Source: an uncultured Bacteroides sp.
GTDB lineage: Bacteria > Bacteroidota > Bacteroidia > Bacteroidales > Bacteroidaceae
NCBI RefSeq assembly: GCF_963677945.1
Contig: NZ_OY782578.1
Span: forward strand, 62,001-126,000
Reading direction: 5' to 3'
Length of the DNA stretch: 64,000 nt
A program made the translations under genes and the position numbers. The notes below the pieces were generated by a model. It was not told where the DNA came from, made no database searches, and worked only from the letters and a program-made list of their open reading frames with translations. Below are positions 795 to 19,748 of this stretch, one piece after another (position 1 is the first letter of the stretch; the number at the start of each line of letters is the position of its first letter).

Positions 795-2303
795 TCATTT
801 TATATGTTTCCCCCAGACTGACCGACCATGACTATCCAATCCTGTAAAGAGAATTGTCTCCGTCTGGTTTTCCCAATCGTGTCCGGCAAAAGTAACCAAA
901 TTATTTATTTCCTCACCATTCAAAACCAGTTTAGTTAATGATTTAGATGAATCAAAAGACCAGGAACTATTAGCACGATCTTTTATACTATTGTCTTCTT
1001 GCAACACTATATGCAAAGAATAATTCTGCTCTGTTTTATTAAGTCGTCCTTCTCCCCAAAGAATCTGTCCGGCTTCTAACTTTTTGTCATGTTTTGGCTC
1101 ATTTATGCGAATCACTTCCCATTCGCCAAGCAGATCTTTATCTTTAATCTTTATCGAACTACTTCCAGCATATCTTTCAGGAGAAACAACCGGCCATCCA
1201 TCGGGATTAAAGAACATTTCTCTAGTGTGCAGCACCATTAACATATTATCCGGTGAAAGGCGACCTTGATGAAACATGAAATATTTACCTTTTTCATCGG
1301 TAGTTACTCCGCAATGAGCAGTTCCAGCCCACCCCACATGATTATTAAAACAATACGGAGCAGTAAGTATTGGAAATATATCCGTTGTATCAGACATTGC
1401 CTTACCAAAGAAATCGGTAAAAGGTCCTTCCGGCTTATCAGCTCTTCCTACCCTGACATTATAAGTGGTCATCAATGGATCATAGGATACAAACAGATAA
1501 TACTTTTTAAACTGAGGATTATATACAATTTCGGGAGCTTCCATATTATCAACTTTATAATTGGCTCTGCGCGCAACCAAATGTCCTAAATCTGCGTTTT
1601 TCATTGCTAATCCTGTTTCCGGATTTAGCTGAACACAATAAAGACCTCCAAAGAATGAGCCGTAATGCATCCACATTTTTCCATTGGAGGGATCAACGAT
1701 AACAGTTGGGTCAATGGCGTTCATGGGCGTTTCTTTATTTGTACGGACTACACATCCTTTCTGAATCCAAGGCCCTTCTGGTGAAGACGACTCGGCTAAG
1801 CCTATATATGAATTCTTCTGCCCGAAAGCAGATACACAATAATAAAGTCTGTAACTCTTTCCATGCTTAATGATATAAGGTGCCCAAATATTAGTAGCCC
1901 CTTTTCCTTCAGAATTACTTCTCACCCACTCCACCGCTTCACGAGGAATTTCGGGGAAAGCCCATCCTTCAAATTCCCAATGAACCAAATCTCTGGATTT
2001 ACGCACCTGTATATATCCTAATGGAACATTATGTTTTTTTGCTTCATCCTTATTTTCACCATAAATTGCATCTGTTGAATACATGTAATAAGTATCACCA
2101 AACTTCTTACAAGCAGGATCGTGAACGTTGTAGGTTCCCCACTTCTTATAGTTTTCCATACCCGACAAAAAGAGATAATTGTCAGGCCAGGGATTTGAAG
2201 CTGGAATAATTTTCAGATCGGACGATGATTTGCAGGAGAGCATTACAGTCACTACAATTAATGTAAAGAATACTCTGAGATGTAAATCCTGATGTTTTTT
2301 CAT
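795..2303 (-). CDS. GH43 endo-arabinanase lipoprotein
   Basis: This 502-residue protein is a lipoprotein: MKKHQDLHLRVFFTLIVVTVMLSC with Cys24 in the lipobox. The five-bladed GH43 propeller carries the expected acids: Asp62 in NVHDP, Asp198 in AIDPT and Glu258 in MEAPEI. The C-terminal ~100 residues, ending GRSVWGKHIK, match the small beta domain found on Bacteroides extracellular endo-alpha-1,5-arabinanases (GH43_C2 type). It should cut arabinan internally at the cell envelope. A start 17 codons upstream (2354) is possible, but it would lie upstream of the predicted transcription start (TAnnTTTG box at 2346-2339), so I chose 2303. It is the first gene of the unit with the GH51 enzyme and is divergent from the HTCS regulator. 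Confidence 0.92.
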   Translation of the reverse strand: MKKHQDLHLRVFFTLIVVTVMLSCKSSSDLKIIPASNPWPDNYLFLSGMENYKKWGTYNVHDPACKKFGDTYYMYSTDAIYGENKDEAKKHNVPLGYIQVRKSRDLVHWEFEGWAFPEIPREAVEWVRSNSEGKGATNIWAPYIIKHGKSYRLYYCVSAFGQKNSYIGLAESSSPEGPWIQKGCVVRTNKETPMNAIDPTVIVDPSNGKMWMHYGSFFGGLYCVQLNPETGLAMKNADLGHLVARRANYKVDNMEAPEIVYNPQFKKYYLFVSYDPLMTTYNVRVGRADKPEGPFTDFFGKAMSDTTDIFPILTAPYCFNNHVGWAGTAHCGVTTDEKGKYFMFHQGRLSPDNMLMVLHTREMFFNPDGWPVVSPERYAGSSSIKIKDKDLLGEWEVIRINEPKHDKKLEAGQILWGEGRLNKTEQNYSLHIVLQEDNSIKDRANSSWSFDSSKSLTKLVLNGEEINNLVTFAGHDWENQTETILFTGLDSHGRSVWGKHIK

Positions 2304-2338: not shown

Positions 2339-2398
2339 CAAAAATAGACGACAAGCGAACAGCTTAAGGTGGACATCTGTCTCTTTTAAGTGGACAAA
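2339..2398 (-). promoter_or_regulatory. Predicted HTCS operator and promoter of the GH43-GH51 unit
   Basis: Read on the minus strand, TTTGTCCAC (2398-2390) is followed exactly 21 bp later by GATGTCCACCTT (2377-2366). After 19 bp comes TATTTTTG (2346-2339), a match to the Bacteroides -7 consensus TAnnTTTG. The same layout recurs at 7166-7224 and 9280-9338 in front of the other genes of this locus. The inference is a direct-repeat activator site overlapping the -33 region, bound by the AraC-type domain of the adjacent HTCS. Confidence 0.65.
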
Positions 2399-2455: not shown

Positions 2456-2463
2456 TATATTTG
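2456..2463 (+). promoter_or_regulatory. Predicted -7 box of the HTCS regulator gene
   Basis: TATATTTG matches TAnnTTTG. It places the transcription start near 2469, only about 14 nt before the ATG at 2483, and downstream of the alternative ATG at 2435. No good -33 TTTG is visible. Confidence 0.45.
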
Positions 2464-2482: not shown

Positions 2483-5400
2483 ATGAGAAATAGAATTTCA
2501 CTCTGCACCTTATTTTCACTTGTTGTCTTTTTATCTTCTTTCAAAGCGTTAGCATTACCAAAGAGCCTGACAACCAGATATAATTTCAGCTGCATCACTA
2601 TGAATGACGGGCTGTTGCATAACTTTATAGACGATATATATAAAGACAAACAAGGTTTTCTTTGGATTTCTACTGCGGGAGGAGGACTATCCAGATATGA
2701 TGGTTATGAGTTTACTCATTATAATATAAACACATGGCCTATTTCCCTGAAAAGTAATTTTATCCACAAAGTTTGCGAGGATAACTTTAAGCGTTTATGG
2801 ATAATATCCGAAAAAGGGACAGACATATTAAATCTCTCATCGCTAAAAATTAATCAACTGACTTATAAGGATAAAACCTTAGATCAGATACTGAACAAAT
2901 CGGCAAATACAATATTGAAAGATAGCAGAGGAAATATCTGGTTATCTGTGAAAGACGCATTATATAAAATAGAATTTACTCCGGATGGTGCTATTGCTCA
3001 TATCTATTCTCTGATACTGAAATTGCCATCTTCAAACAACCAAATCGTTGCAATAAATGAAATAAACGGAGAAATATGGGTTGGGCATAATAGCACTATA
3101 TTTAAGGTGTTGACCAATAAATCCGGAAAGCTTGTATTTTCAACTATTTCTGATAAGCTGAAATTAGTAAAAGGCAGCTACATAAACGTAATCTTTGAAA
3201 AAGAAAATGAAGTGTGGATTGGAAGTGATCGCGGACTATTCAGATACAACAAAACAAATGAATCTATAAAACACTATGTGCATAATGAAAGTGTGCAAGG
3301 TTCTATTTCACAGAACCAGATTACTGACCTCGCTGAAACAAATGATAAGCAATTAATTGTAGCAACTTTAAAAGGACTCAACTTCTATGATCCTATAAAC
3401 GACAATTTTATGCATATCAATCGTGATGAGAAGGACGACTGTTATAGCATAAACTGCGATTTCATTAATTGCTTGCTTGTTGATAGGAATCTTATCTGGG
3501 TGGGTACCGAAGCAGGAGGTTTGAACAAGATTGCCCCAAAAAAGCTTTCAATACACAATTATATATATAATGAAAACGATCCGGGATCCATTTCCAGAAA
3601 TCCGGTCAATGCTATTTATGAAGATAAAACAGGAAATCTATGGATAGGAACAGTAGAGGGTGGACTTAATCTGAAAAGAAAAGATAGTGATAAGTTTATT
3701 CATATTACATCGGGTAACAGTTCTCTTAGTCATAATTCTGTAAGTGCTATAACTGCTGATGAATATAACCATCTTTGGATAGGGACCTGGGGAGGAGGCA
3801 TAAATATACTCGACATGAGCAACATTTCTCATCCTGCATTTGAGCACATAACTTCCGGCACTCACCCCGAATTCACTATCGATTTCGTTGGAGCTCTATG
3901 CTATGATCCTATTAATAAGGGTATTTGGATTGGATCGAACAGAGGTATTTATTTCTATGATATAAAAATAAAAAAACTCATTTCTCCTTTTCCTTTTAGT
4001 GTAACAAAGAATATTCTGGGTACAATAGGCTCACTAATCGATAAGAAAAACAAGTTGTGGATAGGAACCTCGGACGGAGCAATGATCATCGACTTAAAAT
4101 CATTTGCCAGAAATCATTCACACTTTTCATATAAGTATTTAAAATATAAAAGTAACAAGCCCGATTCTCATTGTGTTGACAAAATAAACTGTCTTTACGA
4201 ATCATCCAACGGAACAATCTGGCTGGGAAGTAATGGATATGGTTTATACAAACTATTATCACGAGATAATGAGAACTATCAGTTTCAATCGTTCACAACG
4301 GCACAAGGACTAGCCAATAATTGTGTTCTGGGTATTCTGGAAGATCAGAGAGGCCGTCTTTGGTTAAGTACGTGCAACGGAGTTTCCTGCTATAATCCCA
4401 GCACAAATAAATTTATTAATTACACCAAAGAAGATGGATTAATAAGTAACCAATTTTACTGGAATGCATATTGCAAATCAAACATTAATCAGAATCTTTA
4501 TTTTGGTAATATTGGGGGATTAATAGCGATTGACGGGAATAAAATACAGTCAAAACCATTAAATGAAAAGGTTCTTTTCACCAGACTTAGTGTTCTAAAT
4601 GAGAATATCTATCCTGGCAAGGGGAACTATATTGATGTAGATATATCACAGGCAAAATGTTTAAAATTGCATGAAAAAGATAAATCTTTCTCCATTGAAT
4701 TCTCTGCAATGGATTATGAGATATCAAATACAGCAACCTATTCATACAGGTTACTCGGATTTGACGATAACTGGGTAAAGGTTCCTTCGAGCAGGCGTAT
4801 AGCAAGTTATACCAACTTACGCCCAGGAACTTATACTTTACAGGTGAAATGTGATGCTGAATCAGAGATACAGTCAGGTAACATAACTGAACTAAAAATT
4901 GTTGTTTCTCCATTCTTTTATAAAACAACATGGTTTATTTGTCTGATACTGATTATCCTTTCTTTCACAATTTACAGACTGTATAAGTGGCGTATTGATT
5001 CATTGAAGAATCAGAAAGAACAGCTTCGCATAAAAGTAGAAGAACGTACTCATGAACTGGAAGAGCAAAAGCATATACTTGAAGAACAAACAAAAGAACT
5101 TTCGCGCCAGAACGAAATTCTTACACAGCAAAACGAAAAAATAACCCGACAGAAAGGGCAGTTAATCAAGATGTCGAAGAAGGTTCAGGAACTAACAATT
5201 GACAAGCTGACTTTCTTTACCAATATCACTCATGAATTCAGGACTCCTATCACCCTGATTATGGGGCCTATTGAGAGAGCTCTTAAGTTAAGCTACAATC
5301 CTCAGGTTATAGAGCAATTACATTTCGTTGAAAGAAACTCCAGACATTTACTTTCACTCGTAAATCAATTGATGGATTTCCGCAAAGTTGAATCTGGTAA

Positions 5401-6757
5401 AATAGAGATTGTAAAGGTTCCGGGCAATTTCAAAAAATTTATTGACGATATAATCGAGCCTTTTGAGGCCTTCGCCCGCGAAAGAAACATCAATATCGAA
5501 AAGGTATTCCGTCTTAGTTCTCCGGTTATTCTGTTTGATGAAGATGCAATGGATAAAGTAATAACCAATCTTTTGTCGAATGCAATAAAATATACTCCCA
5601 ATAACGGAATCGTTTCTATTTACATTTCTTCTTTAATAGACAGGGAAACATTGAAGGAGAAACTGTATATTTCAATAAAAGATAGCGGTGCCGGTATTGT
5701 TGAAGAGGATATTTCCAAGATATTCAACAGGTTCTATCAATCCAAAGGAAGTGTAAAATACCCAGTATACGGGCAAAGTAGCACGGGTATAGGTCTGTAT
5801 CTGTGTAAACAGATTGTGCATCTTCAGGGAGGAACTATTCAGGCAAAGAATAACCGTACCGGAGGTGCTGCTTTCAGAGTTGTTCTTCCTTTGTTACGTG
5901 AAGAGCATCCTAAGAAAGAGACAAATGTTGCCAATCAGCTTCAAGCAGCAAATGAGATTAAGGATAATAAACTGCTTATTTCAGGAGGACGTCTTAACAT
6001 GTTAATTGTTGAAGATAATAAAGACATGCGTAGTTATATCCGTTCAATATTGATAGATAAGTTTAATGTTACTGAAGCCGAAAACGGTGAACAAGCACTG
6101 GCTATATTAAATCATCAGAGTATTGATTTTATCATAAGTGACCTGATGATGCCTGTAATGGACGGACTGGAATTATCCAGAAAAGTAAAAGAGAACTTTT
6201 CTATATCTCATATTCCATTCCTGATGCTTACTGCAAAGACCTCAATTGAAACCCGTATTGAAAGCTATAAAATTGGAGTAGACGAATATTTACTCAAACC
6301 GTTTGATGAAGATTTGCTATTGGCTCGTATAAACAACATTCTAGAAAATCGTAAACGCTATCAGAAGCAATTCAGTTTTAAAATGGACGTTGATATTCTT
6401 AATGTAGAAGAGGAATCTTGTGATAAGAAGTTCATGGATAAAGCAATTAGTGTTATTAAGGAAAACTATAAGAATTCTTATTTCGAGGTAAGTGACTTTA
6501 TTGAATCAATGGGGGTTAGTAAAAGTATACTTAACAGAAAGATGCAGAATCTTGCCGGACAATCTGCCGGACAGTTTATCAGGAACTACAGGCTGAACAT
6601 TGCCAGGGAACTAATTTTAAAGAACCGTACTACCAGAAATATGAATATATCTGAGATAGCTTATGAAGTAGGATTCAATGATCCTAAATACTTCACCCGG
6701 TGCTTTACCAAACATTTTGCAGTTACACCTAGTTCTTTAATGGAGTCTGATAAATAA
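2483..6757 (+). CDS. Hybrid two-component system sensor/regulator (HTCS)
   Basis: This 1424-residue protein joins all parts of a two-component pathway. A signal peptide (MRNRISLCTLFSLVVFLSSFKALA) leads into a periplasmic region of about 790 residues. That region is built from repeated LWIGT-type propeller repeats and a Y_Y_Y domain (about 740-805). One membrane helix (about 816-838) is followed by a Gln/Glu-rich coiled coil, a histidine kinase (phospho-acceptor His917 in NITHEFRTP; N box NLLSNAIKYTP; DSGAGI; STGIGLYL), a receiver domain (Asp1220 in ISDLMMP) and a C-terminal AraC-type double helix-turn-helix. Family members sense oligosaccharides released from the target glycan and activate their locus; here that would be arabino-oligosaccharides. 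All catalytic residues look intact. Position 2435 is an alternative start. Confidence 0.95.
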   Translation: MRNRISLCTLFSLVVFLSSFKALALPKSLTTRYNFSCITMNDGLLHNFIDDIYKDKQGFLWISTAGGGLSRYDGYEFTHYNINTWPISLKSNFIHKVCEDNFKRLWIISEKGTDILNLSSLKINQLTYKDKTLDQILNKSANTILKDSRGNIWLSVKDALYKIEFTPDGAIAHIYSLILKLPSSNNQIVAINEINGEIWVGHNSTIFKVLTNKSGKLVFSTISDKLKLVKGSYINVIFEKENEVWIGSDRGLFRYNKTNESIKHYVHNESVQGSISQNQITDLAETNDKQLIVATLKGLNFYDPINDNFMHINRDEKDDCYSINCDFINCLLVDRNLIWVGTEAGGLNKIAPKKLSIHNYIYNENDPGSISRNPVNAIYEDKTGNLWIGTVEGGLNLKRKDSDKFIHITSGNSSLSHNSVSAITADEYNHLWIGTWGGGINILDMSNISHPAFEHITSGTHPEFTIDFVGALCYDPINKGIWIGSNRGIYFYDIKIKKLISPFPFSVTKNILGTIGSLIDKKNKLWIGTSDGAMIIDLKSFARNHSHFSYKYLKYKSNKPDSHCVDKINCLYESSNGTIWLGSNGYGLYKLLSRDNENYQFQSFTTAQGLANNCVLGILEDQRGRLWLSTCNGVSCYNPSTNKFINYTKEDGLISNQFYWNAYCKSNINQNLYFGNIGGLIAIDGNKIQSKPLNEKVLFTRLSVLNENIYPGKGNYIDVDISQAKCLKLHEKDKSFSIEFSAMDYEISNTATYSYRLLGFDDNWVKVPSSRRIASYTNLRPGTYTLQVKCDAESEIQSGNITELKIVVSPFFYKTTWFICLILIILSFTIYRLYKWRIDSLKNQKEQLRIKVEERTHELEEQKHILEEQTKELSRQNEILTQQNEKITRQKGQLIKMSKKVQELTIDKLTFFTNITHEFRTPITLIMGPIERALKLSYNPQVIEQLHFVERNSRHLLSLVNQLMDFRKVESGKIEIVKVPGNFKKFIDDIIEPFEAFARERNINIEKVFRLSSPVILFDEDAMDKVITNLLSNAIKYTPNNGIVSIYISSLIDRETLKEKLYISIKDSGAGIVEEDISKIFNRFYQSKGSVKYPVYGQSSTGIGLYLCKQIVHLQGGTIQAKNNRTGGAAFRVVLPLLREEHPKKETNVANQLQAANEIKDNKLLISGGRLNMLIVEDNKDMRSYIRSILIDKFNVTEAENGEQALAILNHQSIDFIISDLMMPVMDGLELSRKVKENFSISHIPFLMLTAKTSIETRIESYKIGVDEYLLKPFDEDLLLARINNILENRKRYQKQFSFKMDVDILNVEEESCDKKFMDKAISVIKENYKNSYFEVSDFIESMGVSKSILNRKMQNLAGQSAGQFIRNYRLNIARELILKNRTTRNMNISEIAYEVGFNDPKYFTRCFTKHFAVTPSSLMESDK

Positions 6758-6836
6758 TTTAATGTATAGATACTTTACGCAGTGGTGACAAACTTTGAAT
6801 AAAACTTCTTTTATATGTCTTGGGATAAAATTTAGC

Positions 6837-6857: not shown

Positions 6858-7038
6858 CAGAAGGAGGTACCCTGTTACCCCTCGAAAACAACCTTTATAA
6901 ATTTGTTTTTTCGGAATAAAACTGTGCAAAAATTAGTTAACGCATAATAAGCTGTCTATAAACACATTAACCATAAAAGACAGATATTATGTTCTCCTTT
7001 TGTAGAATTAATAAGGTTCAACTATGTATGCAATTTTT

Positions 7039-7116
7039 ATTCGCCAATAATTTTAGTTTATTCCTCAATAAATAGATAACCTTTGCCCAATAAATAAAAT
7101 CTATTCACCAATGGAT
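7039..7116. repeat. Cluster of four AATAAAT-type intergenic words
   Basis: Four related words lie in 78 bp: ATTCGCCAATAA (7039), TTTATTCCTCAATAAAT (7057), TTGCCCAATAAAT (7083) and ATTCACCAATGGAT (7103). The 16-mer TTTATTCCTCAATAAA recurs inverted at 41428-41444, and the inverse of ATTCACCAATG recurs at 63425. The remainder of the 693-bp spacer 6758-7450, apart from the operator and promoter at 7166-7224, shows no coding signal. Confidence 0.5.
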
Positions 7117-7165
7117 TTTATAGCAAAAGAATGGCATAATACCCGTTTTTACCTTAAAAGAAGCA

Positions 7166-7224
7166 TTTATCCACCCCTAAAATTCTTTTGTCCACCTTGA
7201 TAGAGTTATTCACTAATACATTTG
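7166..7224 (+). promoter_or_regulatory. Predicted HTCS operator and promoter of the second GH43 gene
   Basis: TTTATCCAC (7166-7174) and TTTGTCCACCTT (7187-7198) are 21 bp apart. TACATTTG (7217-7224), a TAnnTTTG box, follows after 18 bp. This predicts an untranslated leader of more than 200 nt before the GH43 gene, in contrast to the short leaders at the other two sites. Confidence 0.65.
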
Positions 7225-7486
7225 TGAGCAAACAAAACAGGAATTATGTCCCTATTCAACATTCAGATTTAGGTACATGATAACAATAGTTTGAATACCT
7301 TTTTAACAGAATAATAAGGATTAAGAATGGGAATTACCTATTCTCATAAATGGAAAGTTGCCTATGAAATAAAAACATATTTATCTTTCTCTTTTTGTAT
7401 AACCCTTACATTAATTTTCAAATTTACTATTAAATAACAATCTTAATTTTATGAATTTAAAACTGCGAAAAACTAAAGCTAAAGAT

Positions 7487-9079
7487 ATGATTAGATTCAA
7501 AAAAATATGGCCTATTGGATTCTTTTTCCTTATCTCAGCATGTGGGTCGGACGATAATCCTGCTTCAGAAGACCCAACTATTCCACCAACTACGGAGACT
7601 TACACTGCACCTACTTATAAAGACGATTATAGCAGCATTGCCTCATGGGAAAACCGTAGTAACTGGAATCTGGCCAATGTGCACGACCCCACAGTAGCCA
7701 AATGTGGCGATTACTATTATATGTATTCAACCGACGCTTCTTATGGAAATGCTCACGACGGACACGGACACTTCCTTTACAGACGATCAAAAGACTTAGT
7801 AAACTGGGAGTTCAAAGGAATGGCCATGAGTGAAACACCTGCATGGGTAAAAGACACGCTCAACAATATGCGCCAAAGAGAAGGACTGCCAGCAATTGCC
7901 TCTCCCTCTTATGGCTGCTGGGCTCCGGTTGTGCGCAAAGTGGGAAGCAAATATAGAATGTATTACAGCATTGTTGTTGATAATTATATTAAGACCGGAG
8001 CACAAAACACCGCAGCCAACTTTGATAATTCATGGACAGAAAATGCTTTTATTGGTTTAATGGAAACTGACGATCTGGCTTCTAATATTTGGTTAGACAA
8101 GGGAATGGTTGTTTGTTCCTCTACAGATAGAGGAAACAACTGGTATAGAGCTAGTTTAACTGACTGGAGCGGATATTTTAAATGGAATGCCATTGACCCT
8201 TCATTTATTGCAACTCCAAACAATGAGCAATGGCTTATTTACGGTTCCTGGCATTCTGGTATAGTGGCCGTTAAGCTAGACCCGAATACAGGAAAGCCTT
8301 ATCAACTAAATTCATTGGCCGATTATGGAACCTGCATTGCAACCCGAACTACGGGAAACAGATGGCAGGGATCAGAGGCTCCTGAAATTATTTATAATGA
8401 AAGTACTGGCTATTATTATCTGTTCTTAGCATACGATGAATTATCTGTTGCTTACAACACCCGTGTATGCCGTTCAAAAAACATAACTGGTCCTTTTGTG
8501 GGTATTGATGGCAAAGATATTACTCAGGGAGGAGAATGTTGGCCTATGCTTACACATCCTTATAAGTTTAGCAATCACTCTGGTTGGGTAGGTATATCTC
8601 ACTGTTGTATTTTCCAGAATCCTGATACTAAAGAATGGTATTACGGTTCGCAAGGACGTCTTCCGGCCAATACAAATGGAAATGCTTACAGCAATGCCAT
8701 TATGATGGGGCAAGTCAGATCTGTAGAATGGACAGAAGATGGATGGCCGGTTGTTATGCCAGAGAGATATGCCGCAGTTCCACAAAGTGCAATATCTGAA
8801 AGTGACTTGATAGGAAATTGGGAACACGTCACTTTATCTTATCAATATCAAACACAGCAAGTATCAAAAAGTATAGTCCTTTCAGCAAATAAAACTGTAA
8901 GCGGTGCTATTACCGGGAGCTGGTCTTATGATGCAAGCAAGAAGATTCTGACTATAGGTACATATAAAGTAAAAGTTCAGAGGGGACTGGATTGGGAAGC
9001 TACTCCACGTACAACAACTATCATTTACTCGGGACTTACAGACAAAGGTATTTCACTTTGGGGTAAAAAAGTAAAATAA
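7487..9079 (+). CDS. GH43 endo-arabinanase lipoprotein (second copy)
   Basis: This 530-residue lipoprotein starts MIRFKKIWPIGFFFLISAC, with Cys19 lipidated and followed by an acidic Ser/Asp stretch (GSDDNPASEDP) and a Pro/Thr-rich linker, suggesting surface exposure. GH43 active-site acids are Asp67 (NVHDP), Asp237 (AIDPS) and Glu300 (SEAPEI). The C-terminal domain ends GISLWGKKVK, as in family arabinanases. It is clearly paralogous to the protein at 795-2303 but has longer insertions. A start 12 codons upstream (7451) is possible; I preferred 7487 because it gives a normal lipoprotein signal peptide. The predicted operator upstream and a strong hairpin downstream suggest a single-gene transcript. 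Expected role: first cut of arabinan at the cell surface. Confidence 0.92.
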   Translation: MIRFKKIWPIGFFFLISACGSDDNPASEDPTIPPTTETYTAPTYKDDYSSIASWENRSNWNLANVHDPTVAKCGDYYYMYSTDASYGNAHDGHGHFLYRRSKDLVNWEFKGMAMSETPAWVKDTLNNMRQREGLPAIASPSYGCWAPVVRKVGSKYRMYYSIVVDNYIKTGAQNTAANFDNSWTENAFIGLMETDDLASNIWLDKGMVVCSSTDRGNNWYRASLTDWSGYFKWNAIDPSFIATPNNEQWLIYGSWHSGIVAVKLDPNTGKPYQLNSLADYGTCIATRTTGNRWQGSEAPEIIYNESTGYYYLFLAYDELSVAYNTRVCRSKNITGPFVGIDGKDITQGGECWPMLTHPYKFSNHSGWVGISHCCIFQNPDTKEWYYGSQGRLPANTNGNAYSNAIMMGQVRSVEWTEDGWPVVMPERYAAVPQSAISESDLIGNWEHVTLSYQYQTQQVSKSIVLSANKTVSGAITGSWSYDASKKILTIGTYKVKVQRGLDWEATPRTTTIIYSGLTDKGISLWGKKVK

Positions 9080-9279: not shown

Positions 9280-9338
9280 TTTATCCACTAAGAAAACACA
9301 TTTGTCCACCTTGTACTATTGGTGGTCATTTATATTTG
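9280..9338 (+). promoter_or_regulatory. Predicted HTCS operator and promoter of the LamG-SusCD operon
   Basis: TTTATCCAC (9280-9288) and TTTGTCCACCTT (9301-9312) are 21 bp apart. TATATTTG (9331-9338) follows after 18 bp. The predicted transcription start near 9344 leaves a leader of about 35 nt before the ATG at 9380. The layout is nearly identical to 7166-7224. Confidence 0.68.
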
Positions 9339-9379: not shown

Positions 9380-11563
9380 ATGAAGAAAAGAAAATGGCCG
9401 TCATTTCTGTTGGCGGTATTTGCAGTTCTTTCGTTAGGTGCCTGTGATGAGTGGGGATTAATGGACCCTCCTGCAGGAAATCAAATTTATCCTAAACTAG
9501 AACTAAAAGGAGAATATAAGTTTGAAGAAGAACTTTCTCCTGAAGAATTTACTCTATCCGCCTATGACGGAGGAGAAGTTCCCCGAATTGTTACTGACGA
9601 ATTCAAAGGGAAAGTACTCAATCTTAATGGAGGGTATACTCGCCTGAACAATCCTTTGTATAATGTAAAGGTGCAGACGGGAATATCTATCACCATGTGG
9701 ATAAAAACAGCGGCGGACAATTTACAAGGTGCCATATTTTCATTTGCCAATGAGGATAATTCGGAGCGTATCTTTTTTACACCTAATGCCTGGTTGCACC
9801 GCGACAGTTTGAGTGTTGCCAGCGAGGTTAACAAGCCTACAAGCGTTTCAACTGCACCATTCACTGCCGATAAATGGCACTACATGGCACTTATCATCAC
9901 CACTGAAGGTTACACCTTATATATAGATGGTGAAAAGAGTAGTGAAGAACTTACTTCCACCCAGGCAGGTTCTTTTGACTATCCAAATCTTGTGCAGGCA
10001 TTTCCACGCCTGCCGTACCTGTATTTTGGTTACGGCTCATCCGTACAGCCTAAGGCTATGCGTATTGATGACGTGAAAATATATCGGAACGTGATTACCT
10101 CTAAGGAGATTGCTGTACCGACAGTAACCGGAGGAGAAGAATATCGCTTCCCGCCAAGAGGAACTGTTGGGTATTACACTCTTGACAAGACATTCGCAAA
10201 TAGTCTTAATACATCACAAAGCGGTGAATTAATCACTGTTGAAACTCAAGCTACCCCATCTGCATTCGAACAAGATACTGACAGAGGTATGGTATGGCAC
10301 CAGCAAGAAGGTTGGACAGGCAATGCCAATGGTTGGGCATATTCTCGCTTCGACAATCCTTTGAAGGGTAAGACTTTAGAAGATGGTCTTAGTGTTTGTA
10401 TGTGGATTAATCCACCAACACTGAACTGGTGGGATCAGATTTTTGTAATGAACGATGGAACAAACAAATTCTGGTTCAATGCCATTGGTTACCTTGGCTA
10501 TAATGGAGCAGGGGGCTGGTTTGATTGTCAGAATAACAATGCAGATAACGCACTAACTCCAGGTAAATGGACTTTTGTTACTATAAACATTTCTACCGAT
10601 GGGTTTGCAGTTTACTACGACGGAAAACTGAAGTTTGACAAAGACAATAACGGGGCGTTTGCTTCGGGCGACTTTAAAGGCTACACCAACGTATTGAACA
10701 TGTTTACTTCCGCTAATAACTTCTACCTGGGTTACGAAACATGGTGGAAAGCGGCGCCTGCATTGATAGATGATATGTTCTTTGTAACAAGACCTTTGAC
10801 GGAAAAGGAAATACAAAATCTCTATGCTGACACCAAGAAAGCATCAGGAGGAGTTCCGGTTAGTCCTGCATATGCACCTTCATTGGTAGGCTATTATCCG
10901 TTAAATAACTCTTTTGCAAATGCAGTCAATGCAGCACAGGGAGGCGAACTTATTACCGTAGAGACTCAGGCTACTCCATCAGCCTTCGAACAAGATGCAA
11001 CCAGAGGTTCTATCTGGCATCAACAAGAAGGATGGACCGGAAATGCCAATGGCTGGGCATATACACGTTTCGATAATCCGCTGAAAGGTAAGAATATAAC
11101 AGAAGGTCTAAGTGTTAGTATGTGGCTCAATCCGCCCACATTAAACTGGTGGGATCAAATCTTCGTTCTAAACGACGGCACAAGTAAACTCTGGTTTAAC
11201 GCCATTGGTTATCTGGGCTACAATGGAGCAGGCGGATGGTTCGACTGCCAGAATAATAATGCGAGCAATGCACTAACGGCAGGTGTATGGACATTAGTTA
11301 CCATCAACTTTACGCCTGATAAATTTGAAGTTTATTATAATGGAGTACTTAAGTTTAACAATGAAAATAATGCAGCATTTGGTTCAGGTGACTTTACCGG
11401 ATACAACAATATTCTGAACATGTTTAAAACAGCTAATAACTTCTACTTCGGTTACGAAACCTGGTGGAAAGCTGCCCCGGCATTGATTGACGATGTGTAT
11501 TTCTGCGCCAGTCCGTTGTCGGCTTTACAAGCTGCAGCTTTATATAATGCGACGAAAAAATAG
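9380..11563 (+). CDS. Surface lipoprotein with three LamG-like domains
   Basis: This 727-residue lipoprotein starts MKKRKWPSFLLAVFAVLSLGAC. It contains three concanavalin/LamG-like jelly-roll units: one divergent (about 45-245) and two very similar ones (about 260-480 and 500-725). The last two share long identical stretches such as NWWDQIF, AIGYLGYNGAGGWFDCQNNN and YETWWKAAPALIDD. It has no recognisable catalytic site. As first gene of the SusCD operon it is probably a surface glycan-binding protein that captures arabinan; the many exposed aromatic residues fit this. An upstream start at 9251 is excluded because the operator and -7 box would then be coding. The gap to the susC gene is only 29 nt. 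Confidence 0.85.
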   Translation: MKKRKWPSFLLAVFAVLSLGACDEWGLMDPPAGNQIYPKLELKGEYKFEEELSPEEFTLSAYDGGEVPRIVTDEFKGKVLNLNGGYTRLNNPLYNVKVQTGISITMWIKTAADNLQGAIFSFANEDNSERIFFTPNAWLHRDSLSVASEVNKPTSVSTAPFTADKWHYMALIITTEGYTLYIDGEKSSEELTSTQAGSFDYPNLVQAFPRLPYLYFGYGSSVQPKAMRIDDVKIYRNVITSKEIAVPTVTGGEEYRFPPRGTVGYYTLDKTFANSLNTSQSGELITVETQATPSAFEQDTDRGMVWHQQEGWTGNANGWAYSRFDNPLKGKTLEDGLSVCMWINPPTLNWWDQIFVMNDGTNKFWFNAIGYLGYNGAGGWFDCQNNNADNALTPGKWTFVTINISTDGFAVYYDGKLKFDKDNNGAFASGDFKGYTNVLNMFTSANNFYLGYETWWKAAPALIDDMFFVTRPLTEKEIQNLYADTKKASGGVPVSPAYAPSLVGYYPLNNSFANAVNAAQGGELITVETQATPSAFEQDATRGSIWHQQEGWTGNANGWAYTRFDNPLKGKNITEGLSVSMWLNPPTLNWWDQIFVLNDGTSKLWFNAIGYLGYNGAGGWFDCQNNNASNALTAGVWTLVTINFTPDKFEVYYNGVLKFNNENNAAFGSGDFTGYNNILNMFKTANNFYFGYETWWKAAPALIDDVYFCASPLSALQAAALYNATKK

Positions 11564-11592: not shown

Positions 11593-14500
11593 ATGAAAGA
11601 TAAACAAATGAACACCAAATCATCCAGGAGCACATTTCAGCTCCTGAGATGGTTGTCGGTATTCCTGATGCTGCTGATCGGGCAAACTTTGTCGGCACAA
11701 CAGCGGCAAGTGACGGGTATAGTGAAAGATTTGGTTGGTGAACCTATCATAGGTGCCAGTGTATTAGAGAAAGGCACAACAAACGGTGCAATTACTGACT
11801 TGGACGGAAACTTCAAACTGACAGTAAGCAACGTAGAGAAGGCTGTTCTGCAAATCTCTTATGTTGGCTATCAGACACAACAAATACCTGTAAACGGGAA
11901 AACATTATTGAATGTAATCCTGAAAGAAAATACAAAATTATTGGATGAAGTAGTGGTCGTTGGTTACGGTGCCCAAAAGAAAGAAAGTGTGGTTGGAGCT
12001 ATTTCTCAAGTTTCCAGTAAGGAACTGCTTGCTTCTCCCGCTGCCAATATTTCTCAGGCAATAGCCGGAAAGATCCCAGGTGTAATTACTACGCAAACAT
12101 CCGGTGCTCCGGGACAGGACGATACGAAGATTAATATCCGCGGACGGGCTACCTTTGCAGGCGATGGCTCACCACTTATTCTGGTTGATGGTGTAGAACG
12201 TGAGTTTTCACAGATTGCTCCTGATGATATAGAAACTATTTCTGTTTTGAAAGATGCCTCTGCCACTGCTGTTTATGGTGTACGTGGTGCTAACGGTGTA
12301 ATGCTTATTACTACCAAACGTGGTCGTGATCAGAAACCAGAAGTGAGCTTGACGGCAAACATGCAAATTCAGAGTCCTACACGTAGCGACACATATCTTG
12401 ATTCTTATCAGTCGGTGACGTTGTTAGAAGAAGCTTTGAAAAACGATGGATTGCCTTCTCAATTCTCGGCTAACGATATAGAAATGTATCGTAAGTCGTC
12501 CACCGGACAGTTAAGTGGTTTAGATGCCATGCTTTATCCCAACGTGAATTGGTACAACGAAGTTTTGAAAAGTTCAGCTCCTGCACAACGTTACAACGCT
12601 AGCGTTCGAGGAGGAACTAAGCGCATGCGATACTACGCTTCTGCCGAACTATACGATCAGAAAAGTTTAATCAGAGAACTTAGCCAGGATACGTATGGAA
12701 ACTCTTCCAGCCCCAGTTATCGCCGGTATGCTTTCCGCGCTAACATGGACTTGTTCCTGACACAAGACTTGACATTCTCCGTAAACTTTGGAACTCGTTT
12801 CGAGGAACGTCGCGGATCTAATACTAACGAAAGCAGTACATACAGTCAAACTTTCTACGAACTGAACCATACACCAGGTTGGCTCTTCCCTGTATCATAT
12901 CAGGTACAGAATGGAGAAAGCACAAAAACCTTGTACGGGGGTAGCTCACAGTATCAAAGCAATATTGTTGCAGCATTAGCCAAAGGTGGTTACTATCGTG
13001 CTACCAATACCATAAATGAAACCAACTTTATTTTGGATTATAAAATGGATTGGCTAACCAAAGGATTGAGTGCCAAAGGTATGGCATCATTCGACTATGA
13101 TTCTTATTATAAGAAGATGTTCAAGGCCGACTTTGCTACGTATGAACTAAATGACCGCAATAATTACGAATCAATTGATGCTTACAACCAGTTTAATTCG
13201 GATGGAGAACTAGGCTATAGTAAGGATAACAGTACCACTTACAAACTTTACATGGAAGCCCAGATTAACTATGCACGTCAGTTTGGAAAGCATGATGTAA
13301 CAGCTATGGTACTTTATAATCAGAATGATTACCGCTATAACTCTGAGCTGGCTAAACGTTACCAAGGATTGGTAGGCCGTGTAACTTATGGCTACGATGA
13401 CCGGTATCTTGCTGAGTTTAATGCAGGTTATAACGGTTCTGAAAACTTCCTCAAAGGCAAGCGCTTCGGTTTTTTCCCTGCTGTTTCAGTAGGATGGCGC
13501 ATAAGCAAAGAAGAATTTATGGCCAGCACACAAGAATGGCTGAACAACCTGAAAGTTCGTGCTAGCTACGGTGAAGTGGGAAATGACATTTATACAGTAA
13601 ACGGAACCAGTCAACGGTTTTTGTATCAAGAAAAATGGTCTCAAATCGGTAATGACTATTATTTTGGCAGCTCCGGTAAAACAGGTATTTATGAAACACA
13701 ATATCCTAACCTCGGAGTAACATGGGAACGTGCCCACAAGTACAACCTCGGTCTTGAGTTTGGTTTATGGAATGGATTGTTGAATGGTAATATTGATGTC
13801 TTTTACGAAAAACGCAACGATATCCTGACTGCATACCTTACTCGTCCACAGTGGGTGGGTGTGGCTCTGGCAGCTGGTAACTTAGGTGAAACTAAAAACA
13901 GCGGTTACGAACTTGAGTTGAAGCACAACAAACGCATTAATAAGGATCTAAGCTACAACGTAGGACTAACTTATTCACATGCACGTAACGAGATTATAAG
14001 TATGGATGAACCGGAACAGAAGACTGCTTACCGCAAACGCGAGGGTAATCCTATCAATCAGTATTTTGGTTTGATTGCCGAGGGCTTTGTAACACAGGCA
14101 GATCTGAATAATCAAGACTTTCCGGTATCTACGTTTGGTACGGTGAAGGTGGGTGACCTAAAATATAAGGATGTAAACGGTGACGGTTTCATTGACGATC
14201 GCGACGAAAGTCGTATTGGAAATAGTGACATCCCAGAAAACACTTACGCATTATCTCTGGGTCTTAATTACAAAGGATGGGGATTTAGCATTATGTTCCA
14301 AGGGGTAGATCACGTGAGTCGTTACTATGATGCTGAATCGATGTATGCTTTCGTTAGCGGTGGCAAGGTGAAAGAGCATCATTTGGGACGCTGGAATCCA
14401 GAGGAGAGCGAAGCTTACAATCTGCAACATGCCACTTATCCTTTGTTGCACTATGACAATTACGGTGACCACAATCAGCGCACCAATTCTTTCTTCTTGA

Positions 14501-14721
14501 AGAACGGATCGTTTGTTCGTCTGAAAAACATTGAGTTGAGTTATACACTGCCTCAAAACTGGTCTAAGTTGGCAGGTATGAGCGACTGTCGCCTTTACAT
14601 GAATGCCAACAACTTGATTACCTGGGATCATTTGGACGGCTTGACCGATCCTGAAAGTAATGGATCTAACCGCTACCCTATTATGAAAACAGTGAACTTT
14701 GGTGTAAACATTAAATTCTGA
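11593..14721 (+). CDS. SusC-like TonB-dependent transporter (pair 1)
   Basis: This 1042-residue outer-membrane transporter begins with a signal peptide ending LSAQ. It continues with a carboxypeptidase-regulatory-like domain (about 38-112), the TonB-box/plug junction LLDEVVVVGYGAQKK, a plug with VKDASATAVYG-type spacing and LITTKRG, and a long barrel ending in the aromatic-rich VNFGVNIKF. It should import arabino-oligosaccharides with TonB energy, capped by the SusD lipoprotein encoded 5 nt downstream. ATG 11608 is an alternative start. Confidence 0.95.
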   Translation: MKDKQMNTKSSRSTFQLLRWLSVFLMLLIGQTLSAQQRQVTGIVKDLVGEPIIGASVLEKGTTNGAITDLDGNFKLTVSNVEKAVLQISYVGYQTQQIPVNGKTLLNVILKENTKLLDEVVVVGYGAQKKESVVGAISQVSSKELLASPAANISQAIAGKIPGVITTQTSGAPGQDDTKINIRGRATFAGDGSPLILVDGVEREFSQIAPDDIETISVLKDASATAVYGVRGANGVMLITTKRGRDQKPEVSLTANMQIQSPTRSDTYLDSYQSVTLLEEALKNDGLPSQFSANDIEMYRKSSTGQLSGLDAMLYPNVNWYNEVLKSSAPAQRYNASVRGGTKRMRYYASAELYDQKSLIRELSQDTYGNSSSPSYRRYAFRANMDLFLTQDLTFSVNFGTRFEERRGSNTNESSTYSQTFYELNHTPGWLFPVSYQVQNGESTKTLYGGSSQYQSNIVAALAKGGYYRATNTINETNFILDYKMDWLTKGLSAKGMASFDYDSYYKKMFKADFATYELNDRNNYESIDAYNQFNSDGELGYSKDNSTTYKLYMEAQINYARQFGKHDVTAMVLYNQNDYRYNSELAKRYQGLVGRVTYGYDDRYLAEFNAGYNGSENFLKGKRFGFFPAVSVGWRISKEEFMASTQEWLNNLKVRASYGEVGNDIYTVNGTSQRFLYQEKWSQIGNDYYFGSSGKTGIYETQYPNLGVTWERAHKYNLGLEFGLWNGLLNGNIDVFYEKRNDILTAYLTRPQWVGVALAAGNLGETKNSGYELELKHNKRINKDLSYNVGLTYSHARNEIISMDEPEQKTAYRKREGNPINQYFGLIAEGFVTQADLNNQDFPVSTFGTVKVGDLKYKDVNGDGFIDDRDESRIGNSDIPENTYALSLGLNYKGWGFSIMFQGVDHVSRYYDAESMYAFVSGGKVKEHHLGRWNPEESEAYNLQHATYPLLHYDNYGDHNQRTNSFFLKNGSFVRLKNIELSYTLPQNWSKLAGMSDCRLYMNANNLITWDHLDGLTDPESNGSNRYPIMKTVNFGVNIKF

Positions 14722-14726
14722 CACAC

Positions 14727-16496
14727 ATGAAGAAAACAATATTATACAGTTTGCTAGCGCTATCGATATCTGCAAGTGTTCTCACTTCGTGCGAAGATGC
14801 ATTCGGTAGTTTTTTAGACAAGCAACCCAGTAACGAATTAACAGAAGAACAAGTGTTCGGAGACTGGAGTTTGATGGAGCAATATCACTTTGATACTTAT
14901 AACTTCCTACGCCACGGAGCATGCCGCATTAAGGATTCCTGGCTAGATGCTGCAACTGATCTGGCGGAAACCAGTTATGCAACAGGCGGTGTACGTACTA
15001 CTTTTAATATCGGTAATTATTATGGATCTGACGGAGCTGCAGAACTCTCTGACACTTGGGAACATTATTATCGTGGCATCCGCAAATGCAACATGATTAT
15101 TAATCGCATTGATAGTGTACCTAAAAGCCCTGATCTTAGCAATGATAAGTATTTGCAGGACAAAACAAACTATACTTCCGAAGCTCGCTTTTTGCGTGTA
15201 TGGTTTTACTGGGAATTGTTTTTACGTTACGGACCGGTGCCCATCGTTACAGAAGTGCTTGATCCTGATGGAGACTTGCTGACCGGATATACTGATAGAC
15301 CAACAGTAAAAGAGTTTGCAGTAGATTTCTTACTGAAAGAGTTGAGTGAATGTGAAAGCGGCTTGCTTACCTATGATGATGCATGGAACGCTACCTATGC
15401 CGGTCGTATCGGACAGCCTATGGCACGCGCGCTTGCTTCACGTATTAAACTGTACATGGCAAGTCCTCGATACAGTGCCGAAAGTGGTGTTACCTGGCAG
15501 GAAGCTTCCGATGCCGCAAAGAGCTTTATACAAACCTATGGCTCTAAGTTTGCACTCTTTACAGAGGAAACAACAGACGGTATATTACCATACAATAATG
15601 CTTTACTTCGTACTACTTATCTGGACAAAAACAAAGAAATAATCTTTTTCCGAAACGATGTAGCAGTGGGTTGGAGTGCAATACAAAATGACACACCAGT
15701 TGGTGAAGGAGGAAAAGGAGGTCTTTGTCCCTCACAAAACTTGGTAGATATGTATGACATGATTGACGGCTCTTCACCCTTCAGTACTTATGATACAACG
15801 GGTGCACCAGTATACAATAGTAACGGGCAACCCACTGTTAATGCAGCTAGTGGTTATAACGACGCTACTATGTGGACAGGACGCGACAAACGATTGGAAG
15901 CTACCGTACTTTATCAAGGTACCAAGTGGGGTAACGGAACTATTAATGTTATCAAAGGACAACGAGACAATCCAGTGGGTAATGCTAATGCCACTCCAAC
16001 AGGATATTATGTACGCAAATATATTCCAGAAGCTATTTTAAGTTCTGTACATACAGGCACCTCACGTCGTTTATGGACATTTATTCGTTATGCAGAAATT
16101 ATGCTGAACTATGCAGAAGCATTGAACGAAGTACAAGGCCCTTCCACAGAGGTTTACAATATGCTCGATCAGATTCGCCATCGTTCCGGTATTACCGGTT
16201 CAGTAGCTAATCGTAGCGACCTTACAAGTTCAAAAGAAGCCATGCGAAACTTCATTCACAAGGAACGTACGATAGAGCTGGCTTTCGAGGAACATAGAGC
16301 TTGGGATGTACGTCGCTGGAATGTGGCAGTTGAAGCTCTCTCTCGTCCAATTTATGGCATTGATGTAGCAACCAATGGAACTATCAGCCGCAAAACAGCA
16401 CAGAAACGTATATTCGAGAAAAAGATGTACCTCTATCCAATACCTGAAGGTGAAGTCTGGAAGACCAATATTGAGAACAACCCGGATTGGAAATAA
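14727..16496 (+). CDS. SusD-like oligosaccharide-binding lipoprotein (pair 1)
   Basis: This 589-residue surface lipoprotein (MKKTILYSLLALSISASVLTSC) has SusD/RagB features: N-terminal FLDKQPSNELTEEQVFGDW, helical TPR-like pairs such as EARFLRVWFYWELFLRYGPVP, and the C-terminal signature FIHKERTIELAFEEHRAWDVRRW near residue 520. It binds the glycan and forms the lid of the upstream SusC. The spacing of 5 nt after susC and 18 nt before the next susC shows one operon. Confidence 0.95.
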   Translation: MKKTILYSLLALSISASVLTSCEDAFGSFLDKQPSNELTEEQVFGDWSLMEQYHFDTYNFLRHGACRIKDSWLDAATDLAETSYATGGVRTTFNIGNYYGSDGAAELSDTWEHYYRGIRKCNMIINRIDSVPKSPDLSNDKYLQDKTNYTSEARFLRVWFYWELFLRYGPVPIVTEVLDPDGDLLTGYTDRPTVKEFAVDFLLKELSECESGLLTYDDAWNATYAGRIGQPMARALASRIKLYMASPRYSAESGVTWQEASDAAKSFIQTYGSKFALFTEETTDGILPYNNALLRTTYLDKNKEIIFFRNDVAVGWSAIQNDTPVGEGGKGGLCPSQNLVDMYDMIDGSSPFSTYDTTGAPVYNSNGQPTVNAASGYNDATMWTGRDKRLEATVLYQGTKWGNGTINVIKGQRDNPVGNANATPTGYYVRKYIPEAILSSVHTGTSRRLWTFIRYAEIMLNYAEALNEVQGPSTEVYNMLDQIRHRSGITGSVANRSDLTSSKEAMRNFIHKERTIELAFEEHRAWDVRRWNVAVEALSRPIYGIDVATNGTISRKTAQKRIFEKKMYLYPIPEGEVWKTNIENNPDWK

Positions 16497-16514: not shown

Positions 16515-19500
16515 ATGAGTAACATAAAATATATTATAAGAAAATGCACAGCAACGGGCAGATATCTGTTGCTGCTAAGCTTTCTCTGGATGCAAACAAA
16601 CGTCCTTGCACAGAACGAGCAAATATTGAAAGGCCGGATTGTGGACAGTAAAGGTAATCCCGTGGCTGGAGCTGTAATCAATATAGCCGAACAAAGCAGC
16701 ATTGCTCTGTCGGACAAAGATGGATACTTTAGTCTCAATAATGTGAAATCTCAGGATGAGCTTTGTGTAAGTAGCATCGGTTATTTAAACACTACCGCAC
16801 AAGTCAACTTCAAGGAGGGTTTTCAGATTGTATTATCGGAAGACTTGGATGAATACCTGCACACCATGCCTGTTCCTTTCGGGCGTAAAGCAAAGAAACT
16901 AATGACAGAAGCAACTTCCGTGGTAACAGGAGAAGAGTTGCAAAAACACCCGATTACTATCTTGCAAAATGCTTTTACTGCCACCGTTAACGGTATGGAA
17001 ACTTACGAATGGAGTAGTGAACCGGGATGGAGTGAAACGGCTATGTACATTCGCGGTATACGTACCATGAATCAAAATGCACGTGCTCCACTTGTTATTG
17101 TAGATAATGTGGAGCGAGATCTCTCTTTTCTTGATGCTTTTCCTATAGAAAATATCACAGTACTAAAGGATGCTGCAGCTACTGCTATCTACGGAATGAG
17201 GGGGGCAAATGGTGTAATACTTGTAACTACTAAGCGTGGACAAGCAGGTAAAACCAACATTAACTTTACTCAGGAAGTAGGTTATCAGATGCTGAGCAAC
17301 AAAATGGAATTGCAAAATTCCTATAATATGGCATTGACCCGTAACCAGGTTCGCTATTTGAGTGGAAGTGATCCAATGTATACAGACGAGCAGGTTGAAA
17401 AATATCGTCGTGTAAGCAATGGTGAAACATTAGAGGGAATTGACCGCTATAGATATTTCGACACAAATTGGTTTGAACAATTGTATCGGGATGCTGCTCC
17501 CATGTACAAAACCAACATGCAGATAAGCGGTGGAAACAATCGCGCCCGTTACTACGTATCTTTCTCTTATCTTCGTCAGGAAGGTATGTGGAACGAGAAA
17601 GGAACCAACTGGAATGAGAACTTCAATACTCAACACATGTTAAACAGATGGAACCTGCGATCTAATATAGATATTGATGTGACAAAGTTTCTAAACGTAT
17701 CATTAGATCTTGGTGGTCGTATCGATAATATTAACCAACCTACTGAAGGGGTGTTTGCCCTAACTACATTTGGAGCGGTAGAGGCTAATCCTATGGAACC
17801 AGTATACTGTCCTAACGGTGAACTTTATGCTAGCAGTACAGCCAACAATCCTCTACGTTATCTGGCTGCCAGTGGTCAGGAAAAGAACCGTCGTCGTAAT
17901 CTGTATAGTACATTGAGTGTAAATGGTGATCTGAGCAGTCTGTTGAAAGGTTTAAAAGTGAATACCACTGTGAGTTTCGATTCCTATGAGACATTTGAAT
18001 CTACTCAGCGAAATGCTATTAATACGTATAACTACGACTACACTAACGCGGCTGTTAATGATCCGTCAGCATTTACTTATACTAAATATACTTCGTACTC
18101 TGCACTGACAAACCCATCTGCTAATCAACGTGAATATTACTATCACCTGAACTTCAATGCAGGGCTGAATTATAGCAATAATTTTGGTAAGCATGCAGTA
18201 GATGCACGTGCTTTTGTCCGTACTTACCAGAATGTAGTAAGCGGTAGCACATCGTCAGAACGTACGTTGTCATTCAACGGTCAAGCTACGTATGCTTATG
18301 ATAATCGTTATATTTTGTCAGGCAATATTAGTCGAATGGCAAGCGATAACTTTGCTCCTGAAGAACGTTGGGGTACTTTTTACGGTACATCAGTGGGATG
18401 GGTAGCATCAGAAGAATCATGGTTGAAAAACAAAAACATTGATTTATTAAAACTACGTGCTTCTTATGGACGTGCCGGACAGTCGAACACCGGTACCGGA
18501 CGTTATCCGTATCAGGGAACTTACTCTAGTGGTACAGGTTATAGTTTTGGTTATTCTCAGAGTAATATCGGAGGATACTATGAGAGCAAAGCTGGTAATA
18601 GCAACAACAAGTGGGAAGTATCCGACATGTTAAATATCGGTCTTGATTTTGATTTCTGGGGAGAGAAACTGTATGGTGCAGTGGATGTGTTCAAAGAATG
18701 GCGTTCGGGTATTTTGGTAACACGTTCTACCATTCCTTCGATTATCGGAGTATCTGTAAGTTCGGATTCTTACGGAAAAGCAGAAAGTAAAGGACTTGAA
18801 GTTACTTTAGGCCATCGCGGCAAAATAGGTAAGGTAAATTATTATCTGGAAGGTTTGTTAACCTGGAACACAAATAAGGTTACAGAGATGGATGAAACGG
18901 AACCAAACGTGGAATGGCAACGTAAAACGGGTCGTCGGATTTATGATGGTACGGAAGTTGCTGCCTTGTATGAAAGTTCATTTAATAACACTGTGGGTGG
19001 ATGGAATATTTACAAATTCGAACAGTGGGCGAATGATCCAGACAAAGTTGCTACTAGCCAGCAAGATGCAATTGAAAATCCGGGAAAATATCCGTATCAC
19101 TCGGCATCCAATGGCAAACAGACTTTAGGTACGGCTGTCTTCAAAGATTTGAACGGAGACCGACAAATTGATTCTAACGACATGACGCCCGATACCTATA
19201 CAATTATTCCTGAATTGATACCGGCATTGAATATTGGTTTGGAATGGAATGGCTTTGATGTACGCGCTGTATTTAATGCTTATCTCAACCGTAGTGTATT
19301 TCTTTCACCTGCCATCAGTTTTAGTGGTTGGAGTAACATGGGTACACACGAAGTGACGAAGGCATGGGGGTACTATAACGACAACCCTAGTGACCCACGC
19401 AATATTAATGCGGCCTATCCACGTCCGCTTTACGGAGGTTTTAATGCCATTGACTCTGATCGCTCTACAGGTACATACAAGAATGATATCTGGGTAAAAA

Positions 19501-19724: not shown

Positions 19725-19748
19725 TGTTGTACTTTAAACTTTGAAATA

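Follow-up and report, generated by a model that had tools for sequence, protein, structure and literature searches.

The window, i.e. the complete stretch of 64,000 nucleotides that was analysed, corresponds to G000:C1:62001-126000 of a single-contig genome of 4,565,850 bp and carries an arabinan-type gene cluster at its left end. The genes of this cluster are given below, together with the source of each assignment.

2..766, minus strand: CBM_4_9 / alpha-L-arabinofuranosidase N-terminal part (GH51 type), gene cut by the window edge (Pfam)
795..2303, minus strand: GH43A, family 43 glycoside hydrolase of 502 aa, ATG at 2303, leading the leftward unit (Pfam on ORF 795-2354)
2483..6757, plus strand: HTCS regulator, probably from ATG 2483 onwards, with propeller sensor, Y_Y_Y, HisKA, HATPase, receiver and AraC-type HTH (Pfam, translation)
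7451..9079, plus strand: GH43B, family 43 glycoside hydrolase, single-gene unit (Pfam)
9380..11563, plus strand: protein with three Laminin_G_3 (LamG) stretches, leading the rightward unit (Pfam)
11593..16496, plus strand: SusC-like (11593-14721) and SusD-like (14727-16496) pair (Pfam)
16515..21548, plus strand: second pair, SusC-like (16515-19724) and SusD-like (19749-21548) (domain match)

The score of the GH51-type arabinofuranosidase (21.1 bits) is slightly below the Pfam cut-off of 22.2. The HTCS has a complete domain set (Reg_prop, Y_Y_Y, HisKA, HATPase_c, Response_reg and HTH_18, all over their Pfam cut-offs), and its translation contains the phospho-acceptor His and Asp as well as the S/CHIP motif (THEFRTP, ISDLMMP and SHIP, respectively), the latter as defined in the accessible text of PMC11253607. 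The second SusC/SusD pair is close-packed behind the first and is probably transcribed together with it.

The original prediction held that three intergenic regions of this cluster share a composite of two TCCAC half-sites exactly 21 bp apart, the second one extended and followed, after 18-19 bp, by a TAnnTTTG box. The elements that were recovered, and the predicted -7 box of the regulator gene, are the following.

2366..2394, minus strand: operator 1, TCCAC (2394-2390), N16, TCCACCTT (2373-2366) (direct reading, pattern search)
2339..2346, minus strand: predicted -7 box TATTTTTG of GH43A-GH51, 22 bp past the proximal TCCAC (pattern)
7170..7198, plus strand: operator 2, ahead of GH43B, TCCAC (7170-7174), N16, TCCACCTT (7191-7198) (direct reading, pattern search)
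7217..7224, plus strand: predicted -7 box TACATTTG of GH43B, 21 bp past the proximal TCCAC (pattern)
9284..9312, plus strand: operator 3, ahead of LamG-SusC-SusD, TCCAC (9284-9288), N16, TCCACCTT (9305-9312) (direct reading, pattern search)
9331..9338, plus strand: predicted -7 box TATATTTG of LamG-SusCD, 21 bp past the proximal TCCAC (pattern)
2456..2463, plus strand: TATATTTG, predicted as -7 box for the HTCS gene, with operator 1 having its distal half-site 61 bp away (pattern, related loci)

Direct reading and pattern search thus place all three composites at the positions that had been claimed, with a half-site period of exactly 21 in three out of three and a gap between TCCACCTT and the TA of the box of 19, 18 and 18 bp for operators 1, 2 and 3, respectively. 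The CTT that had been read as an extension of the second half-site is not conserved (position 28 is a T in 0.51 of 72 sites). The three units do not account for all promoters of the locus, since a separate -7 box is predicted for the HTCS gene, which would be a fourth promoter. Operator 1 faces two ways, with GH43A-GH51 to its left and the HTCS gene to its right.

The three composites are the only copies of the repeat pair without mismatch in the 64-kb window. A search of the whole genome with TCCAC-N16-TCCACCTT bore out this specificity, as it yielded only four strict matches (the three operators and one other) and none for the reversed control; the fourth match lies antisense within a glutamate dehydrogenase-like gene (named by eye) and was rejected as a regulon member. 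With one mismatch allowed the number rose to 21, of which 4 are the strict matches, and the reversed control reached 11, so that such weak copies are mostly noise and little informative. The full composite including the -7 box was present in 16 of 198 genomes (21 matches, of which 3 in the own genome; reversed control 0), and the counts for the own genome and the relatives together rule out a chance composite. Occurrence ahead of many unrelated genes, which the original prediction had named as the outcome that would speak against it, was seen neither in the own genome nor in the 15 other composite-bearing genomes, where an HTCS gene adjoins the composite in 15 of 15 cases. A looser form, lacking the CTT, was found in 19 of 393 genomes of the order, with 31 matches against 5 for the control, and some of these 31 are therefore due to chance. 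HTCS relatives were searched in 16 of these 19 genomes and 9 have one at E ≤ 1e-150; the looser composite adjoins an HTCS relative in G438 and G181 and lies about 9-13 kb from one, on the same contig, in G173 and G343.

The HTCS of the window is 98% identical to one in Bacteroides luti DSM 26991. The 15 loci of relatives that were selected by the composite all contain an HTCS relative (54-63% identical in the best ORF), and 14 of them contain GH43A- and GH51-like genes, the remaining locus (L086) having a GH43A-like gene. Because this first set was selected by the composite itself, 40 further loci were picked by the HTCS protein alone: out of 54 HTCS matches, 2 were from the own genome and 11 were already in the composite set, and 40 of the other 41 were used (G079:C28 was left out). 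Locus L229 (G137) was left out of the analysis. At least one operator with a -7 box at 21 or 22 bp was recovered in 27 of the 40 protein-selected loci and in 43 of the 56 loci in total (window included), the half-site being common to these 43. The operators are located on both sides of the HTCS gene in 29 loci, on the divergent side only in 10 and downstream only in 4, where it should be taken into account that some of the stretches end early. Ten of the 13 loci without a site (L137-L143, L145-L147) encode sister HTCSs that are 39-50% identical and have a DNA-binding domain that differs in the alignment (judged by eye). L127 has a one-mismatch copy only (TCCAC/TCTAC, at the same spacing), and no operator was found in L111, with an HTCS that is 72% identical and has a similar DNA-binding domain, or in L130 (52%). 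As far as it can be read from the DNA, the regulatory architecture is real and well conserved.

The spacings within the operators appeared very strict. The 56 loci contain 78 non-identical repeat pairs of period 21, with a half-site consensus of about CRTTTGTCCACCT in both copies and information that falls off after CCACC. When the region 5-60 bp past the proximal TCCAC was searched, a TAnnTTTG box was found at exactly 21 (44 pairs) or 22 bp (27 pairs) in 71 of the 78 cases, and the sole other offset was that of one box at 42 bp, which belongs to the outer pair of a triple site. Of the 6 pairs without such a box, 3 lie within genes, 1 lies by masked bases and 2 have TATATTCG at the same distance. 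An earlier, filtered count, in which only pairs with TA..(T/C)TTG within 18-28 bp were considered, gave 70 out of 70 at 21 or 22 bp, compared to the 71 out of 78 of the unfiltered recount; the totals of 70, 72 and 71 that are used in this text differ slightly since duplicates were removed on different flank lengths. The sequence of the spacer between operator and -7 box is near random (median identity 0.28 and 0.32), which implies that its length is kept and not its sequence. It is hardly credible that the fixed spacings reflect shared descent only, in the absence of any functional constraint: the loci are indeed related and the rows not independent, but the median identity of the spacers is as low as 0.28-0.37, their lengths vary by 1-2 bp and the next ATG follows the -7 box at a roughly measured distance of 16 to 238. 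Extra half-sites were observed as well: L084 contains a third unit exactly 21 bp upstream, and a further TCCAC occurs inside the spacer to the -7 box in five sites, in L079, L086, L110, L116 and L134.

To characterise the position where a -33 element should be, we compiled 278 control -7 boxes. Apart from 7 that lie towards the right of the window, these were taken from the 101 regions described below, mostly around HTCS genes, with the SusC genes excluded. In 43 of these, TTG starts at -23 to -21 from the TA (19, 13 and 11 at the three offsets, against a mean of 6.6 per offset), compared to 11-28 for the other three-offset blocks. This peak agrees with the -33 element as described in the accessible text of PMC7366714. 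In the operator promoters a TTG was found at this place in only 1 of 72 and the place is occupied by the end of the half-site, CACC(T). The repeats, their spacings, the conservation of both and the near-absence of TTG at the -33 place are direct observations. The latter, together with the position of the half-site end, makes a regulator that stands in for the -33 element, as had been predicted, the best reading, although it should be kept in mind that the control signal is weak (43 of 278), that the controls come mostly from around HTCS genes and that 'replacement' is therefore deduced from the lack of an element that is often weak anyway. The arrangement would be that of AraC-type class II activation, in which the proximal half-site overlaps the -35/-33 element at a fixed spacing to the -10/-7 box. 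One could also imagine that the HTCS binds the repeats as an ordinary upstream (class I) site and that the overlap is incidental, with the polymerase using a weak -33 element, and the general weakness of the -33 element in Bacteroides promoters (TTG in 43 of 278 controls) is in line with that. Class I sites, however, often tolerate shifts by whole helical turns, whereas the spacing was 21 or 22 bp in 71 of the 78 pairs, with 42 bp (the triple site) as the only other value between 5 and 60 bp and not a single box about 10 bp closer or further away. We therefore consider a class I site improbable.

The shared operator showed a second fixed distance, which the original prediction had missed. In 37 of 39 loci, window included, the -7 box of the HTCS gene and the distal half-site of the divergent operator are separated by 59, 60 or 61 bp. 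The two exceptions are L086, with an imperfect box, and L084, where the distance is 80 bp and where a third half-site, 21 bp further out, lies at 59 bp from the HTCS -7 box (80 = 59 + 21). The divergent spacer has a near-random sequence (median identity 0.37, from 36 sites where the locus count has 37, on account of slightly different filters), and its length thus looks constrained. The HTCS promoter has a T-rich stretch at -24 to -21. We also noted an A-tract at -41 to -38 from the TA that is conserved in the divergent HTCS promoters (A 0.81-0.92, 37 loci); it is positioned between the operator and the HTCS -33 and resembles an UP element or a bend. The HTCS gene itself probably starts at ATG 2483 and not at 2435, as the latter would place the promoter within the gene; ATG 2483 is located 88 bp from the operator, and among the 35 relatives that were measured, 21 have their mechanical ORF start at 87-89 bp from it.

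The kind of operator described here was known already, which the original prediction had overlooked: direct-repeat HTCS motifs with a mean spacing of 21 bp have been in print since 2013, predicted for 16 of the 36 HTCSs of B. thetaiotaomicron (Ravcheev et al. 2013, accessible part of PMC3878776), and the operators of the window are likewise direct repeats with a 21-bp period upstream of PUL operons beside an HTCS gene. New in the present data are the precise spacings and the sharing of one operator between divergent genes. In the accessible part of Ravcheev et al. we found no mention of a fixed distance to the -7 box, of a lost -33 element or of a lock to the promoter of the HTCS gene, and neither a fixed operator to -7 distance nor -33 replacement was found stated for HTCSs in the open texts (without supplements) of PMC12125979, PMC10766802, PMC4666351, PMC7366714, PMC10994844 and PMC12596196. 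According to the legend of Figure S3 in PMC5061871, the sequence is shown with a frame around the BT0366 sites and bold type for the -7 boxes, both as predicted, so that their closeness should be visible there. Binding of DNA by HTCS receiver-DBDs has been reported (Gao et al. 2024, PMC11253607, accessible text), and a solved receiver-DBD chain exists (12aw).

The best comparison is with BT0366 of B. thetaiotaomicron, named HTCS_Ara-1 in the accessible part of PMC3878776, where joint control of BT0365-60 with AraR is described. Considering gene order and length, BT0366 is likely the orthologue of the window HTCS; a protein search for the orthologue returned no informative locus name among the best 120 of 4195 relatives. 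In the BT0366 regulon (BT0360-BT0369) the HTCS gene lies between two PUL units, and in the window an operator precedes both arms; unlike that regulon, the window has a further operator ahead of an extra GH43 gene (GH43B) that adjoins the HTCS gene. The available part of PMC5061871 (Schwalm et al. 2016) describes an increase on arabinan of more than 1,500-fold for BT0364 and BT0367 and of 15-fold for BT0366, an induction that depends on BT0366, a need for this regulator in the case of both PUL units, and binding of its receiver-DBD fragment to the BT0365 promoter and the BT0366-BT0367 region in EMSA. Binding of BT0366 at the PUL was also found by ChIP-seq (Lynch and Sonnenburg 2012, accessible part of PMC3404733), and as ChIP with a BT0366 chimera in the same study found loci that it represses, BT0366 may bind other sequences too.

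Two other explanations can be weighed against these data. The first is that operator 1 represses the HTCS gene, with a loop or a road-block as the purpose of the 59-61 bp lock; for the loci studied here the geometry alone is known, and a fixed distance would be expected with either sign. Repression is nevertheless unlikely, given that after the switch the mRNA of BT0366 was raised 15-fold and the tagged protein increased, on the basis of which positive autoregulation was suggested (PMC5061871, available part); the position of operator 1 fits with that suggestion. The second is that a regulator other than the adjoining HTCS, namely AraR, the Crp-like BT4338 or a sister HTCS, has its site in the repeats. 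This is very unlikely in view of several observations: the motif described for AraR is semipalindromic and 21 bp long (PMC4666351, open text), whereas the repeats in the window are direct; the Crp-like palindrome was not found in window positions 1-27590 even when 3 mismatches were allowed; sister HTCSs with other DNA-binding domains have other half-sites at the same place; and in B. thetaiotaomicron a BT0366 fragment causes a shift of the corresponding DNA (PMC5061871, available part). The published Crp-like palindrome was rejected as an element of the locus, its 11 matches with up to 3 mismatches all starting at 27591 or beyond and 29 of 100 shuffles reaching the same number.

Taken together, we consider the three composites to be operator-promoters that are likely bound by the HTCS encoded at the locus, with the proximal half-site at the -33 place, 21 or 22 bp before the -7 box, and we assign this reading a probability of roughly 0.8. 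Binding in this species, the start sites and the contact with the polymerase we infer from the arrangement of the sites. A periplasmic arabinan oligosaccharide would activate the HTCS, of which the phosphorylated AraC-type domains would bind the two direct half-sites, 21 bp apart, on the same face of the DNA. The proximal domain would then abut RNA polymerase where the -33 contact is missing, and the bound HTCS would switch on GH43A-GH51, GH43B and LamG-SusCD. On the other side of the shared operator 1, the HTCS bound upstream would boost its own gene, whose T-rich -33 persists. The arrangement resembles that of E. coli AraC at araI1-I2 (pBAD), where two direct half-sites are 21 bp apart centre to centre, the proximal one overlaps the place of the -35 element and activation is of class II; the window operators have direct half-sites of period 21, of which the proximal one is at the -33 place. 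Unlike AraC, which is a soluble arabinose-binding protein, the HTCS is a membrane-bound phosphorelay sensor, and unlike pBAD the promoters are of the Bacteroides -7/-33 type, with one operator that in addition points towards the divergently oriented regulator gene, at 59-61 bp.

In a wider proposal, whose chances we rate as even, the 26-bp operator would act as a two-way switch with two hard distances, 21-22 bp between the proximal half-site and the -7 box of the degradation genes and 59-61 bp between the distal half-site and that of the HTCS gene. The degradation genes, lacking a -33 element, would then be silent without the HTCS, whereas the HTCS gene with its own T-rich -33 would have a basal activity that is then boosted. 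The sequence alone would in that case explain why BT0364 and BT0367 respond more than 1,500-fold and BT0366 only 15-fold. A fixed -7 geometry without a -33 element would provide a testable promoter model for tight, sugar-specific control, and the locked divergent promoter a physical basis for the positive feedback that has been suggested for BT0366.

The same proposal would make this geometry general for the HTCSs of the Bacteroidota. The general geometry would consist of a repeat of 21-22 bp that ends about 20 bp before TAnnTTTG, with half-site letters that change with the DNA-binding domain, and the operators of uncharacterised HTCSs would then be findable from spacing alone. Bacteroides genomes contain dozens of HTCS-like regulators: we counted 47 and 58 Y_Y_Y matches in two genomes. 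Among the sister HTCSs, the second one of the own genome (L065 4981-12361; C1:4410698-4414918) is 48-49% identical to the arabinan one, and ahead of SusC in L065 and L140-L143 a TTTTCATCC-like half-site is repeated at 21 bp. A -7-like box that differs from TAnnTTTG at one position follows at 49-50 bp from the start of the distal half-site. L145 and L146 have a CTATnTTC half-site that is repeated at 21 bp, with TAnnTTTG at 53 bp from the start of the distal half-site, i.e. 21 bp past the proximal one, and in L138 and L139 the pair is weaker and is accompanied by TATTTTTG at 49 bp. The half-sites of all these sister loci were picked by eye.

A motif-blind scan of three genomes covered 344 -7 boxes in 101 regions, 22 from the own genome, 37 from G085 and 42 from G072. 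Some few of these regions surround shorter Y_Y_Y regulators, and the arabinan locus of each genome was deliberately excluded. Close upstream repeats were found most often at lag 21 (7) and lag 22 (8), compared to 34 for the other 29 lags together. The general form is hence a minority signal (15 of the 344 -7 boxes), and most promoters in the scanned regions do not have it. The mean identity at lag 21 was the highest for the 32 SusC -7 boxes (0.36; lags 20 and 23 also raised) and was not raised for the 251 others, and CC is present within -25 to -22 in 5 of the 7 lag-21 cases (printed list). These results hint at a general spacing rule for HTCSs. The detection of repeats promoter by promoter in the own genome was too noisy, and the pooled counts alone were kept. 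The 59-61 bp lock was not borne out as a general rule: among 47 other HTCS promoters, none had a repeat of lag 21 and a single one had a repeat of lag 22 in the region -75 to -55; the mean identity in HTCS promoters was nonetheless highest at -60, lag 21. The scan also recovered a TGCA(A/C/T)GATTT repeat of lag 22 just upstream of TAnnTTTG (L070, L159 and L201), ahead of genes of 478-503 aa. This repeat is present in all three genomes scanned and is perhaps the operator of another HTCS group.

Some further features of the window were observed. The leader of GH43B is long, with about 226 nt between the -7 box and the ATG (7225-7450), compared to about 228 nt in B. luti (L029/L108) and about 108 nt in L109. 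No Rfam match was found in this leader (7225-7450), and in the region 6700-7500 we found 0 intrinsic terminators and 3 sigma-70 promoter-like sites, against a shuffle mean of 4.6, and both kinds of signal were rejected there. Elsewhere in the window there are two cobalamin riboswitches (Rfam RF00174), at 24110-24296 on the plus strand (E 7e-25) and at 38795-38993 on the minus strand (E 2e-23), the first of which precedes an anaerobic ribonucleotide reductase gene (24467-26854).
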